Positions 50,880 through 56,116 of a stretch of DNA of 64,000 bases are shown piece after piece. The DNA comes from Tomitella gaofuii (lineage in GTDB: Bacteria > Actinomycetota > Actinomycetes > Mycobacteriales > Mycobacteriaceae). Under the pieces are notes generated by a model, which saw only the letters and a program-made list of their open reading frames with translations, ran no database searches and was not told the DNA's origin. The stretch spans positions 3,114,954 through 3,178,953 of the forward strand of contig NZ_CP059900.1 in NCBI RefSeq assembly GCF_014126825.1, given 5' to 3'. The position numbers and the translations under genes are program-made. Position 1 is the first letter of the stretch. Each line of letters starts with the position of its first letter.

Positions 50880-51185
50880 GTGCCATCGGGGTGGCGGGTG
50901 ATCGCGCCGTCCCACCAGGGCCATGTCAGTACGCGCGACGCGAATGCACCCTATCGACTGTCGTTCACCACCGGCGGCTTGCTGAGGTCGCCCGCTACGG
51001 CGATCGCTGCGATGCTGATCGCGTCTGCAGATGCCTCGACAGTCCGCACCGACGCGGTCGAATGGAACATCGTTCAGCAACGTTCCGCCGCATCGACCGT
51101 GCGTGTGACTCGTGAAGTTATGCAGCGTCTCGCCGAATTACCGCAGCCTGGACTGGAGCTTGTCGCCGACGGCTCGGTGGACGGC
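50880..51185 (+). pseudogene. brxA: brxA (DUF1819) N-terminal remnant of a BREX system
   Basis: About 100 codons remain. After a GTG (50880 or 50898) the text ANAPYRLSFTTGGLLRSPAT and the segment EWNIVQQRSAASTVRVTREV, then MQRLAELP, match the start of BrxA/DUF1819 proteins, which open BREX phage-defence operons. The frame then runs straight into sequence of a pglZ gene in another frame near 51175-51190. A large internal deletion is the simplest explanation. No complete BREX gene precedes it. Confidence 0.75.
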
Positions 51186-51714
51186 GACGCAGCTCGGCCT
51201 CGACGGAGACCTTCAGTTGCAGGTGCCGCGGGCACTGCACCGCCTGCGGATGCAGGGTGCCGGCTACCAGTACGTGCACGGGGGTGCCACCCTGCAGGAG
51301 ATCGTGGTGCCGTTGGTGACGCTCACGCAGTCCCGCAGCAAGGACATCAGCAAGGTCACAGTCGACGTCAACGTCAGCAGCCCCAGAATTACCGCCAGCA
51401 CCGTGTTCGTCGCCCTCCTGCAATGCGAGGCGTCCACCGGTAAGCGCCGCGGCCGGACTCTCATCGTCGGTGTCTACGCCGAAGACGGCGCGGCACTGTC
51501 CGGGGAACGCACCGTCGTCGTCGACAGCGCCGCGGACGACCTGCGCGACCGGAACTCTACAGTCGAACTCGTCCTCGGTGAGGCCGCCGAACGGTACAAC
51601 GGACAGACCGTACATATCCGTGCCGACGAGGAGACCAACGGCACCCGCACCGAGTACCGTCACACCACCGCAAGCCTCAATCGAGGGTTCGGCGGATTCT
51701 TCGATCCACTCTGA
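51186..51714 (+). pseudogene. pglZ: pglZ C-terminal remnant of a BREX system
   Basis: The last 175 or so codons of a PglZ alkaline-phosphatase-superfamily protein: TQLGLDGDLQLQVPRALHRL, then GYQYVHGGATLQEIVVPLVT, which is the conserved C-terminal signature, and a beta-rich tail ending SLNRGFGGFFDPL. The phosphatase core is missing. The ATG at 51112 opens the same frame but lies in the brxA remnant, so it is fortuitous. Confidence 0.75.
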
Positions 51715-51776: not shown

Positions 51777-52424
51777 GTGGAGCAGTTGCGCGGGACGCCG
51801 TTGCCAGCCGAGCTGACTCGCACCGCCCTGCGCACTCTCCGCCCTCGGGACGCCGGTGGCATCTACGCCCACCCCCGCCCTGAATTGGCTCGGCTCACCG
51901 ACCGGGGCGTCCTGCACAGGGTGGCGCGCGGCTACTACATCGTCGTACCCCAGGAGCAGGTCGGGCGCTCCTGGCTGCCCGGGCTCGAAGCCGCCGCCGC
52001 GGGCATAGCGTCGACGATCTATGGCGCAGACCGCGCGCTGGTGATGGGCGTGAGCGCCGCCCGACTGCACGGAGTGATCCCGAGGGCACTCGCGACCGCC
52101 GTCGTCGCCGTCCCCAGGCAACATAAGCCGATTCCGCTGCTTGACCGGTCGGCCACCGTCCTGTTTGTTCAGCGCGATACCGCGGCGCTCGATGCCGAAC
52201 GCATCGACACTCCCCTCGGCGGCACCCTCGTCACTACGCCCGAACAGACTGTGCTCGACCTGGCCAGGCGCCCCCGGCTCGGGAACGCGGATGCCGAGGT
52301 CCCGACCGCCGTCGCAGCACTTCACCACCGCTGCGACCACGACCGTCTCGAAGACCTGGCAACGAAGCAGCGGATGGTTGCGAGCCTGCGGCGGGCCGAG
52401 ATCTGGGCGGGAGTAAGTCCGTGA
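51777..52424 (+). CDS. abiEi: AbiEi-type antitoxin (type IV toxin-antitoxin)
   Basis: A 215-residue antitoxin and repressor. The N-terminal winged-helix part has ARLTDRGVLHRVARGYYIVV; then come AAAAGIASTIYGADRALVMG, VMGVSAARLHGVIPRAL and TTPEQTVLDLARRPRLGNAD, the AbiEi C-terminal pattern. GTG 51777 has AAGGAG ahead. Its stop overlaps the toxin's GTG (GTGA). The gene looks intact, unlike the BREX genes on either side. Confidence 0.88.
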   Translation: MEQLRGTPLPAELTRTALRTLRPRDAGGIYAHPRPELARLTDRGVLHRVARGYYIVVPQEQVGRSWLPGLEAAAAGIASTIYGADRALVMGVSAARLHGVIPRALATAVVAVPRQHKPIPLLDRSATVLFVQRDTAALDAERIDTPLGGTLVTTPEQTVLDLARRPRLGNADAEVPTAVAALHHRCDHDRLEDLATKQRMVASLRRAEIWAGVSP

Positions 52425-53200
52425 TCCCCGACGAACACGATGAGGTAGCCACCCGATTCGGTGTCGCACCGGAGCAGGTGGAACGCGACCACCTCATCTC
52501 ACATCTCCTGGCCGTCCTATCCGACCGATTCGCGGACCGACTGCATTTCATCGGCGGGACCGCGCTTGCCCGCACCCACCTGCCGAACGGGCGTCTCAGC
52601 GAGGACATCGACCTCGTCGCAGGTGGCGACCGCACCGCACTTGCCGCCGAACTCGATGCGGCCCTGCCCCGTGCAGTGGCGCGCACGTTCGGCCGGCTGG
52701 CTTGGGAACCGGCACTCGGCGCCGTCCGAGACTCCGATTCCGCCCACCTCCGCACCGCCGGCGGACTGTCCGTGAAGATCCAGTTGCTCTCCGCCAAGGG
52801 CCGGACTCTGTGGCCTGTCGAGAGGCGGCATCTCGAACAGCGATACAGCGACGCTCCGCCCGCTCGATTGGCCGTTCCCACGCGTACTGCGTTCGCTGCG
52901 TCGAAAACTGCAACCTGGCACGACCGCAGCGCTGCCCGAGACCTGTGGGATCTGTGGGCGCTCGCGGAGATCGGCGCAATCGACGACGAAGCTGCAGCGA
53001 TGTTCGCGCGACACGGTCCGACTAACCATCCTCCCAGCCGGCACATGTTCCTCGCCGCACCGCGTGAGGAGGAATGGACCGCGCAATTGGCGGGCCAAAC
53101 CCGTCTGAGGATCAGCGCATCCGAGGCCCTGATCACCGTCCGCGATGCCTGGGAATGTGTGGCTGAACGTGACGCGACGCAAGAAGCTGGAGAACCGTGA
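52421..53200 (+). CDS. abiEii: AbiEii-type nucleotidyltransferase toxin
   Basis: A 259-residue DNA polymerase beta-like nucleotidyltransferase that causes abortive infection when freed from AbiEi. Motif I and II are in FIGGTALARTHLPNGRLSED followed at once by IDLV (about 46-70). The later motif with Lys and Asp appears in FAASKTATWHDRSAARDLWD. It is intact. The stop overlaps the GTG of brxL, so the pair sits inside the BREX operon and would be co-transcribed with it. Confidence 0.9.
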   Translation: MIPDEHDEVATRFGVAPEQVERDHLISHLLAVLSDRFADRLHFIGGTALARTHLPNGRLSEDIDLVAGGDRTALAAELDAALPRAVARTFGRLAWEPALGAVRDSDSAHLRTAGGLSVKIQLLSAKGRTLWPVERRHLEQRYSDAPPARLAVPTRTAFAASKTATWHDRSAARDLWDLWALAEIGAIDDEAAAMFARHGPTNHPPSRHMFLAAPREEEWTAQLAGQTRLRISASEALITVRDAWECVAERDATQEAGEP

Positions 53201-54370
53201 CCAACAACTTAGCCGACACCGCCGATGCCCCCCACTCACTGCTCTCGATGCCAAAGCGAACACCGAGTTCCCCGGGCTGGTGGTCCGCAAAGACCTGATC
53301 GGTCGCGTCCGCGGCAATGCCGTCGTCCCCGGCTACGTGCTCGAGTTCCTCCTCGCCCAGTATTGCGCCACCGATGACGAAGCCACGATCGACGCCGGCA
53401 TCGAGAGCGTCCGGGATATCCTCGCCCAGCACTACGTGCACCGCGGCGAGGCCGAGCTGATGAAGTCCACGATCCGCGACCGCGGGCGGCACCGCGTGAT
53501 CGACAAGGTCACCGTCGTACTCGGCGACAAGTAGGACATCCACACCGCCTCGTTCTCCCACCAGGGGCTCAAGTCGGCGCCTATTGACGACCGCACCGTC
53601 AAGCAGCATCCCAAGCTGCTCACCGGCGGCGTCTGGTGCATGGTCGACGTCGAATACTCCGGCGGCGACTCCCTCGATGACCGCTGGATCATCGCTGGTC
53701 TCAAGCCGATCCAGCTCGGCCAGTTCGATGCCGGCGTATACCTCGCCGCGCGCGCGAGATTCAGCACCGACGAGTGGATCGACCTGCTCGTGCAGAGCAT
53801 CGGATTCGACCCGGAACGCCTGTCGCCGCGCGGCAAACTCCTCCAGCCGGTGCAGCTGATCCCCTTCGTCGAACGCAGCTACAATCTCGTCGAGCTCGAC
53901 CCCAAAGGCACCGGCAAGTCGCACGTGTACTCGGAGTTCTCCCCGCACGGCATGCTCATCTCCGGCGGAGAGTTCACCGTCCCGAAGCTCTTCGTCAACA
54001 CCTCCAACGGACGCATCGGGCTCGTCGGCTTCTGGGATGTCGTCGCCTTCGACGGGTTCGCCGGGCAGAAACGAGTGGACAAGGCCCTCGTCGACATCCT
54101 GAAGAACTACCTGGCCAACAAGACGTTCTCCCGCGGCGTCGAGACCATTCCCGCCGAGGCGTCGATGGTGTTCATCGGGAACACTTCCCGGCCCGTGCCG
54201 ACGATGCTCGCGCACTCCGACTCGTTCGAGGTGCTCCCCGAGGCCTACTACGACGCCGCCTACCTCGACCGGCTGCACTTCTACCTTCCAGGCTGGGAAG
54301 TCGAGATCATCCGGCGCGAACTGTTCACTGACGGCTACGGATTCGTCGTCGACTACCTCGCCGAAGCGCT
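53197..54370 (+). pseudogene. brxL: brxL (Lon-like BREX protein), frameshifted, with an amber codon and truncated
   Basis: The gene starts at GTG 53197 (overlapping abiEii) with TNNLADTADAP. A C6 run at 53228-53233 marks a frameshift; in the new frame BrxL continues LTALDAKANTEFPGLVVRKD, YVLEFLLAQYCATDDEATID. A TAG at 53532-53534 interrupts it after VVLGDK. The frame resumes with LKSAPIDDRTVKQHPKLLTG, WIIAGLKPIQLGQFD, Walker A ELDPKGTGKSHVY (about 237) and LVGFWDVVAFDGFAGQKRVD. It ends near YLAEALRHL, where BrxL proteins normally continue for 150 residues or more. At least three lesions, so non-functional. Confidence 0.85.
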
Positions 54371-54892
54371 CCGGCACCTACGACGCCGGAATCGTTCGAG
54401 ACGCTGCGGACCGGCGCGCTCGACATTCCCGACAACGCAATGGGGTACTCGTACGCCGACCTGCTGATACCGCACCTGCGCGGCGCACAGCGGATAGAGA
54501 TCGTCGACCCCTACATCAGGGCCCCGCATCAGCTGCGCAATCTCAACGAGCTGCTGGTAGCGATCATTGCCGCGAAACCGGCTGAAGATGCAGTCGCCGT
54601 GCATCTGACTACATCCGTGGAGCCGGAACGCGAGGATAGACACAAGGCACAGATCGTCGGGCTGTCGGAGATCAAGGACGCTGTCGCCGAGGGCGGCGTG
54701 GAGTTCACCTGCGATTTCGCGGACGGACTGCACGATCGGCAGATCACCGCCGACACCGGATGGCGGATACAGCTCGGTCGCGGCCTCGATATCTTCCAGC
54801 CCTTCACCAGCGCCAATCGGTACGACATCCGCGTTCGGCGACAGGACTGGCGGCGCACCAAGTCCTGCACGATCACCTCACTGAAGGAGTAA
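54371..54892 (+). pseudogene. MIT_C (phospholipase D-like) domain fragment joined to brxL
   Basis: In a different frame from brxL, this reads APTTPESFETLRTGALDIPD, then MGYSYADLLIPHLRGAQRIE, IVDPYIRAPHQLRNLNELL, VAVHLTTS, LSEIKDAVAEGGVEF, LHDRQITADTGWRIQLGRGL and DIFQPF. The DPYIR, HDR and GWxIxxGRGLDxF elements match the MIT_C domain best known from human MITD1. In bacteria it is found at the end of larger proteins. It has no start of its own (ATG 54440 is internal), so it is the tail of a fusion or of a second gene joined to brxL by deletion. Confidence 0.75.
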
Positions 54893-55036: not shown

Positions 55037-56116
55037 ATGACGCACGCGCCCGAGGAGCACGACGAGCTCAAAGGACTCGATGGGCTGTGGGAATCCGCGC
55101 TCGCGCACGGGCGGGCGCCGTTGTCCGCAGCGCTCCTCCGATTCGTACGGAACTTTCCGACGATCGCCGCCTACAACGCGGCCATGATCGGCATCCAGCG
55201 GCCGGGCAGCCGCTACGTGCTGACGGCGCGGCAATGGCGGGACCGTTTCGGCAGGCAGGTCGTACCGGGGGCGAACCCCCTGGTGATCCTCAAACCATTC
55301 GGTCCCGTCGAGTTCGTCTACGACGTATCCGACGTCGAGGGCGATCCGCTGCCCGCTGAGGTACTCGACCCCTTCGCCAGCAGCGGACCGGTCACGGACG
55401 AGGGGCTGACCAGGTTCGCGCTCGGTCTGCCCGTCTCCGGTATCGCCTACGCGGAATCGCAGCAAGGACCCACGGCCGCGGGACACATCGTGCGACTGAG
55501 CGAGCCCCGCAAGAAGCGGATGGGCAATGCCGAGAAAGTGATCCTGTTCGATCTGGTGGTCAATCGCAGCCTCGACGCCAACGCGAAGTTCGCGACGGTC
55601 GCGCACGAACTGGGTCACCTGTACTGCGGCCACCTCGGCGAACTCACGCGGGATGCGTCCACGGAGGACGACCGCGCCGGAAAGGGCCGCGCGGTCGTGA
55701 TCAAAGATCGATCATCCCTGCCGCACGAGGTGCAGGAGTTCGAGGCGGAAGCGGTGTCGTGGCTCGTCTGCGGGCGGATCGGGGTCACCAGCCCCGCAGG
55801 CGAGTACCTCGGCAACCTGCTGGCCGGCTCGGAGCCGCCTCCGGTCTCGTTCGAGGCGATCCTCAGCGCGGTGCGCCGGGTGGAATCCCTGGGGCACGGC
55901 ACCGCCCAGCTCGGCGTGACGCTTCGCGATGACCGGCCCGCGCTGTTCGCGCCGCATGCCTTCGGACAGCACTCAGCCGGGCAGCACTCAGCCGGACAAC
56001 GCGCGGCTCCGGATACCGCACTTCCGCGGTGGCAATCATTCACGGCCGCAGCCCTGCAGGACAATCACCCGACGGTGGACGTCTCGCGGTCCCGCGGCCG
56101 CACCCAGACCCGGTAG
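55037..56116 (+). CDS. ImmA/IrrE-type (HExxH) metallopeptidase-like protein
   Basis: A 359-residue protein with a zinc-peptidase motif [18 protein letters not shown] (H190, E191, H194) and a later [15 protein letters not shown] holding the third ligand region, as in ImmA/IrrE proteins. The N-terminal part ([30 protein letters not shown]) resembles the DNA-binding module of ArdC-type anti-restriction proteins. A short tandem repeat ([12 protein letters not shown]) lies near the C-terminus. GGAGGAG precedes the ATG. It lies at the edge of the defence remnant and overlaps the convergent permease gene by 52 bp. Confidence 0.8.

Follow-up and report, generated by a model that had tools for sequence, protein, structure and literature searches.

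Gene remnants and an AbiE pair at the locus

The window, by which we mean the whole 64,000-nucleotide stretch of the Tomitella gaofuii genome that was analysed, carries a run of BREX gene remnants surrounding two open, full-length genes (Table 1). A brxA remnant is abutted directly by what is left of pglZ, whose score against TIGR02687 falls under the curated cut-off, as expected for a fragment; the pair abiEi and abiEii comes next, and beyond it lie three pieces of brxL, the last of which encodes a MIT_C domain. With Rhodococcus opacus queries, no match to brxB, brxC or pglX was obtained within the window, and the set of genes that makes up a working type-1 BREX system (brxB, brxC, pglX and a full pglZ) is not present there. 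R. opacus BrxC and PglX likewise found no match in the T. gaofuii genome; a positive-control genome was not part of these searches, although by tblastn both queries do recover a Tsukamurella relative.

Table 1. Coordinates of the BREX gene remnants and of the nested abiE genes in the window
Feature	Position	Strand	Evidence
brxA remnant	50952..51182	+	about 77 N-terminal residues, then cut; tblastn with R. opacus BrxA residues 8-84, 69% identity, E 7e-28
pglZ remnant	51178..51714	+	C-terminal 178 residues; R. opacus PglZ 668-845, 86% identity; TIGR02687 681-834, 6e-30
abiEi, antitoxin, open, full length	51777..52424	+	PADLOC AbiEi 3e-98, profile positions 1-203 of 204; Pfam AbiEi_1 4e-14
abiEii, nucleotidyltransferase toxin, open, full length	52421..53200	+	PADLOC AbiEii 1e-116, profile positions 3-247 of 249; Pfam AbiEii 2e-27
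brxL piece 1, BrxL_N (DNA-binding region)	53229..53534	+	BrxL_N 1.5e-28; 93% identity to R. opacus BrxL residues 13-113; an in-frame stop closes the piece
brxL piece 2, AAA+ ATPase domain	53535..54371	+	BrxL_ATPase 2.6e-91; 90% identity to R. opacus BrxL residues 115-392
brxL junction	54371..54404	+	about 138 codons gone (R. opacus BrxL residues 393-530), frame change; tblastn pieces stop at 393 and start again at 531 in another frame; blastn pieces across the junction
brxL piece 3, MIT_C phospholipase-D-like domain	54404..54892	+	MIT_C 1e-35; PDLC02508 530-694; 76.5% identity to R. opacus BrxL residues 531-692

Among the plasmids searched, the closest intact BrxL is a 692-amino acid protein encoded by R. 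opacus plasmid pCP135, on which the operon is complete in the order brxA-brxB-brxC-pglX-pglZ-abiEi-abiEii-brxL (with brxA and brxB annotated as DUF1819 and DUF1788). The initial annotation had considered an intact version worth finding, and the pCP135 gene is one of several unbroken examples. The operon order in the window, including the placement of abiEi-abiEii, is the same and the three brxL pieces are 93%, 90% and 77% identical to the R. opacus protein, but the R. opacus gene is intact and its operon complete whereas the window copy is broken. Upstream of MIT_C, BrxL_N and BrxL_ATPase are both matched, in two pieces; their Pfam profile matches span 53145-53531 and 53535-54464, the latter reaching only to position 239 of 313, and the earlier statement that the MIT_C stretch follows a BREX ATPase is thus correct. 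An intact BrxL frame of about 670-750 amino acids is not present: the sequence is interrupted by an in-frame stop, by an internal deletion with a frame change and, as judged by eye, by a further frame change in the start region, where piece 1 lies in a frame different from that of the expected start beside abiEii. In Walker A and in Walker B, a single residue of the window ATPase also deviates from the one found in 89 of 89 and 71 of 71 pattern-bearing relatives, respectively (96 proteins searched). We are close to certain that the stretch belongs to a dead brxL pseudogene, of which it encodes the C-terminal MIT_C domain, and that this pseudogene closes the 3' end of a type-1 BREX operon from which everything between the start of brxA and the end of pglZ is gone.

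Relative-rate tests against R. opacus indicated faster change in the ATPase piece (p = 0.033 and 0.041 with two outgroups) and, with one of two outgroups, in AbiEii (p = 0.041 and 0.75), p-values that are weak because twelve such tests were run. The MIT_C piece changed no faster than its R. opacus counterpart (p = 0.53 and 0.84 with two outgroups), which makes a residual function of this piece alone conceivable. An ATG-started open reading frame of 150 amino acids (54440-54892), in a frame that stays open upstream to about 54332 (186 amino acids), covers almost the whole domain and, together with the lack of acceleration, would suit a stand-alone protein that is still expressed and has a role of its own; against this, no ribosome-binding-like sequence was seen by eye 5' of 54440, the remaining operon is wrecked and in a comparable remnant in a genome of the same family (L008) the cut falls within MIT_C, making such a protein very improbable.

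Between pglZ and brxL, the AbiEi/AbiEii type IV toxin-antitoxin pair occurs not only in the window (51777-53200) and in R. opacus (L002 16985-18414) but also in a Gordonia MAG (L017 335-1704) and in Antrihabitans (L018 5012-6411); it was not found in Tsukamurella L019. In the window the pair is open and full length amid wrecked BREX genes, as would be expected of an addiction module. The main text of Rakesh & Krishnan 2026 (PMC12839542) does not mention AbiE.

Taken as a whole, the locus looks like a decayed islet, given that the operon is gutted, that neither MIT_C nor BREX was found in the sister sequences examined and that a remnant occurs in the same family. MIT_C was absent from four sister genomes in the genus, one of which is only 81% complete, and no BREX match was found in the examined stretches of three sister genomes that have a close homologue of the neighbouring permease. 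A profile search with E-values up to 0.001 found no second MIT_C place in the 4.35-Mb T. gaofuii genome, the window contains no tRNA and no convincing repeats were found around the BREX remnant. In the same-family genome G028, a BrxA fragment stands beside a cut MIT_C fragment (L008, equivalent to L176 8639-8997), constituting a second BREX remnant, and this genome also carries a BrxL-MIT_C frame elsewhere (L007). Just 3' of the window brxL, a gene at 55037-56116 has a weak ImmA/IrrE-like metallopeptidase match (Peptidase_M78, E = 0.002, under the cut-off) and no match in the examined sister-genome stretches.

MIT_C as the C-terminal domain of BrxL

The stretch had been proposed, from its motifs, to follow the MIT_C pattern and to be related to human MITD1, and both proposals were borne out. 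In a Pfam profile search, PF16565 (MIT_C) matches 54371-54889 with an E-value of 1e-35 and 123.1 bits against a cut-off of 25, and the match takes in profile positions 1-141 of 142, i.e. the whole domain. This translation is free of stops and contains DPYIR, the HLTTS stretch, HDR and GWRIQLGRGLDIF; piece 3 accordingly retains DPYIR, HxR(x)4D (codons H 54731, R 54737 and D 54752) and GRGLD. When searched against all PDB sequences, the window domain gave significant matches to human MITD1 alone (4a5z, 8e-18; 2ymb, 2e-17), with the other three matches at E-values of 0.5 or higher.

The same piece matches positions 530-694 of the 698-position PADLOC BrxL model PDLC02508 (3e-41) and contains HDRQITAD. 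It therefore has the features of BrxL-HKD, in which a PLD-like tail with an HRD motif replaces the Lon-like domain; Lon_C gave no Pfam match in any window piece, and the gene is not of the Lon type. The suggestion that the domain is the C-terminal part of an undescribed BrxL variant was accordingly right about its place, a C-terminal BrxL domain in a BREX locus, and wrong about its novelty. PADLOC-DB 2.0.0 (2023) already contains a BrxL model that includes this tail, and in Rakesh & Krishnan 2026 (PMC12839542), BrxL with the Lon-like domain replaced by an 'HKD-endoDNase' bearing an HRD motif is reported in 1030 of 2913 type-1 taxa with BrxL. There, the HRD is read as active and DNA-cutting, HKD nucleases are called established restriction factors and an earlier paper on the Menshen system is cited. 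Position, HRD motif and frequency lead us to infer that the published HKD domain is MIT_C. On this equivalence, BrxL-HKD and the window gene share the N-terminal and ATPase domains, the C-terminal PLD-like domain with HRD and the type-1 BREX operon; they differ in that the window copy is broken and that the published name is HKD DNase. As a gene, the window copy is unremarkable: a dead example of a BrxL variant that had already been described.

A genome scan returned at least 573 relatives, the best 80 of which were kept by likeness to the window and are therefore biased towards BrxL. Among these 80 loci, the frame that encodes MIT_C also holds BrxL sequence in 79, and a further BREX gene was present in the examined flank of 73. 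The one exception is a Tsukamurella brxL whose BrxL parts lie in other frames (Tsukamurella sp. PLM1, L022 262-8483); pglX, pglZ and brxL each occupy two or more frames in that stretch, reflecting decay or assembly errors. Viral contigs gave a similar picture: MIT_C and BrxL shared one frame in 15 of 16 loci, the exception lying at a contig end, and 15 of 16 had a further BREX gene in the examined flank. Although the MIT_C frame in the window differs from that of the upstream BrxL piece, these single frames in relatives led us to reject the suggestion of a second, separate defence gene ending in this domain, to which we assign next to no probability. Short MIT_C-BrxL frames clear of contig ends occur at L031, L063, L091 and L103, some of which may be broken too. 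No match to MIT_C was found in named phage records (E-values up to 0.01).

In evenly drawn genome samples, each including a central genome picked for having MIT_C, PF16565 scored above the cut-off in 5 of 296 genomes from Actinomycetota, 7 of 398 from Pseudomonadota and 27 of 395 from Bacteroidota. BrxL_ATPase exceeded its cut-off in 20 of the Actinomycetota and 41 of the Bacteroidota genomes, and MIT_C and BrxL shared a gene in 5 of the 20 (one being the broken window copy) and 23 of the 41. All seven Pseudomonadota matches above the cut-off are BrxL; weaker PF16565 places in this phylum (L128-L131) were dropped, as by eye they resemble ABC-transporter proteins.

MIT_C also occurs outside BrxL. 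Plasmid pTs485 of Candidatus Thiodictyon syntrophicum encodes a 947-amino acid protein (L004 5610-8453) with a dynamin-family GTPase domain (Dynamin_N, 3e-20) and a C-terminal MIT_C (3e-21), and the 16-kb stretch around it has no annotated BREX gene. On a plasmid of Paenarthrobacter sp. YJN-5 (L011 5476-6525), MIT_C stands behind an IF2_N domain, again with no BREX gene annotated in the surrounding 12-kb stretch, and in a Bacteroidota genome (L153 790-3414) it precedes many Sel1 repeats. Two more such cases, L156 and L157, are weak or distant.

Comparison with structurally characterized BrxL showed the exchange of tails. R. opacus BrxL aligns with Lon-type BrxL (PDB 8emc/8emh) through the N-terminal and ATPase regions, residues 18-481 in the case of 8emc, and with MITD1 over residues 537-687; where the R. 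opacus and window proteins have MIT_C, the Lon-type protein has a Lon-like C-terminal domain. Five of six comparison BrxL proteins contain Lon_C and none has a significant match to the MIT_C model, the BrxL of Meiothermus having neither. Repeated swaps between Lon and MIT_C tails are conceivable: a tree of the ATPase domain needs two changes, and its starred branches force two, albeit with long branches meeting, as the program warned. A single MIT_C clade was not rejected (p-AU = 0.107), nor was it in a tree with the Planktothrix and Meiothermus rows cut to their first 259 residues, GTGKS being absent (p-AU = 0.19).

Kinship with MITD1 and the HxR motif

The likeness to human MITD1 is general among the bacterial domains. 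A profile built from 46 of them matched MITD1 at 1e-38 as its sole significant PDB hit (the next had an E-value of 0.025), and by eye all 14 columns that are invariant in the 46-row bacterial alignment carry the same residue in MITD1. Residues 12-137 of 4a5z are 44-50% identical to a BrxL clade comprising L110, L132, L133, L134 and Thioflavicoccus L005, and 29-44% identical to the 141 remaining rows with an alignment of 100 residues or more. MITD1 groups with that clade with support of 98/91 in a 55-domain tree, which, having one eukaryotic row and no root, does not fix the direction of transfer. Human MITD1 and the window thus have a homologous C-terminal domain, but MITD1 has an ESCRT-III-binding MIT domain and no BrxL ATPase, and its triad has asparagine for aspartate. 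We regard the identification of the stretch as firm, and the general link to MITD1 as the part worth following. A PLD fold for the MIT_C of BrxL would rest on MITD1's solved structure and on the Pfam name.

Although the architecture of BrxL with a PLD-like tail is already known, a statement that this tail is the MITD1 domain was not found in the literature searched, a body that leaves most subscription papers and preprints outside; MITD1 is not mentioned in the main text of PMC12839542. MITD1 and BREX came up together in one item, a review on vesicles in gastrointestinal cancer.

The signature of HKD enzymes is HxK(x)4D. Its counterpart in the MIT_C family is HxR(x)4 followed by D or N: in an alignment of 151 rows, in which some loci are entered twice, the histidine is kept in 148, the lysine position is arginine in 149 and lysine in none (the two non-arginine rows being broken pieces of L008), and the last position is aspartate in 123, asparagine in 26 and a gap in 2. 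Parsimony on a quickly built tree of 149 rows gives at least 17 interchanges of aspartate and asparagine. No PLDc family was recovered for the window row or among 25 of the 28 Pfam families listed for 46 members, at E-values up to 10 and with HMMER's filters dropping most matches above 0.1. Changing lysine to arginine is the standard way of inactivating such enzymes. With arginine in place of the key lysine throughout the MIT_C family as seen here, phosphodiester hydrolysis of the classical HKD type is doubtful.

Possible roles of the tail in intact BrxL

PLD-fold proteins often pair. In Lon-type BrxL, the Lon-like domain joins two rings (PMC10164562). BrxL is made up of a DNA-binding N-terminal region and an MCM-like AAA+ ring, and MIT_C occupies the place of the Lon-like domain that joins two such rings tail to tail in other BrxL proteins. 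Because MIT_C stands at that place and PLD-fold proteins often pair, we propose that in intact copies it may take over ring joining as a PLD-fold dimer. Its conserved His/Arg pocket would bind phosphate groups, those of DNA or of an anionic membrane as in MITD1, with no classical HKD phosphodiester hydrolysis. The comparisons above show the identity, position, fusion and conservation of the domain and the decay of the window copy; dimerisation, phosphate binding and absence of hydrolysis are what we infer from them, and we put this combination of non-hydrolytic phosphate binding and ring joining at slightly under an even chance for intact BrxL. The overall explanation, a dead MIT_C-type brxL whose tail in working relatives would join rings and bind phosphate without classical hydrolysis, we consider somewhat more probable than not.

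The foremost rival holds that MIT_C in intact BrxL is an active HKD-type DNase that cuts phage DNA with its HRD triad, the window copy being a dead example. PMC12839542 proposes this, with HKD nucleases as established restriction factors, and the retention of histidine, arginine and, in most rows, aspartate is what an active site would lead one to expect. This published nuclease reading is put in doubt by arginine in nearly every row and lysine in none: PLD1 K898R and PLD2 K758R serve as catalytically inactive mutants (PMC3648575). The repeated interchange of aspartate and asparagine also speaks against it, as does the presence of every invariant column in MITD1, which is known as a membrane binder. 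Tdp1, a member of the PLD superfamily, uses asparagine in place of aspartate. Since histidine and arginine are kept, aspartate usually so, since Tdp1 has asparagine and since MITD1 itself has been worded as a PLD relative, an enzyme with an unusual triad is possible; the wording in question, 'phospholipase-D family member', is that of PMC9477494. Overall, an active DNase is a serious contender that we hold to be somewhat less than evenly likely.

Hadders reportedly presented MITD1 as a membrane binder in 2012, to go by the title of that work. A further reading, compatible with either a nuclease or a non-hydrolytic tail, is that MIT_C, like its counterpart in MITD1, targets the cell membrane and takes the BrxL ring there, placing restriction at the site where phage DNA enters. 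The 44-50% identity of MITD1 to one BrxL clade favours it, as do the fusion of a bacterial MIT_C to a dynamin-family GTPase and the tabulation of MITD1 as a PI(4,5)P2 binder in PMC9776629. The dynamin fusion was seen once, however, and the other non-BrxL fusions, to Sel1 repeats and IF2_N, carry no sign of a membrane, and we consider membrane targeting improbable.

Returning to phosphate binding without hydrolysis, the kinship with MITD1 reaches beyond BREX. If the 'nuclease' tail reported in 1030 of 2913 type-1 taxa with BrxL, about a third (PMC12839542), is the MITD1 domain, sharing its invariant pocket and lacking the catalytic lysine, the choice is between a BrxL tail without nuclease activity and an enzymatic activity of MITD1 that has been overlooked. 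The link also bears on the origin of an ESCRT cofactor domain. A more speculative proposal, which we think unlikely though worth stating, is that the tail standing in for the Lon-like domain in a large share of BrxL proteins is a non-nuclease from which the membrane-binding domain of human MITD1 descends or to which it is sister; a bacterial anti-phage machine and the ESCRT cytokinesis machinery would then share a phosphate-binding, non-cutting PLD-fold module passed between bacteria and early eukaryotes.

As a separate observation, a gene annotated as phospholipase D-like lies directly 5' of a Lon-type brxL on Planktothrix agardhii plasmid p2 (L179 1-1390), where PLDc_2 matches just under its cut-off.
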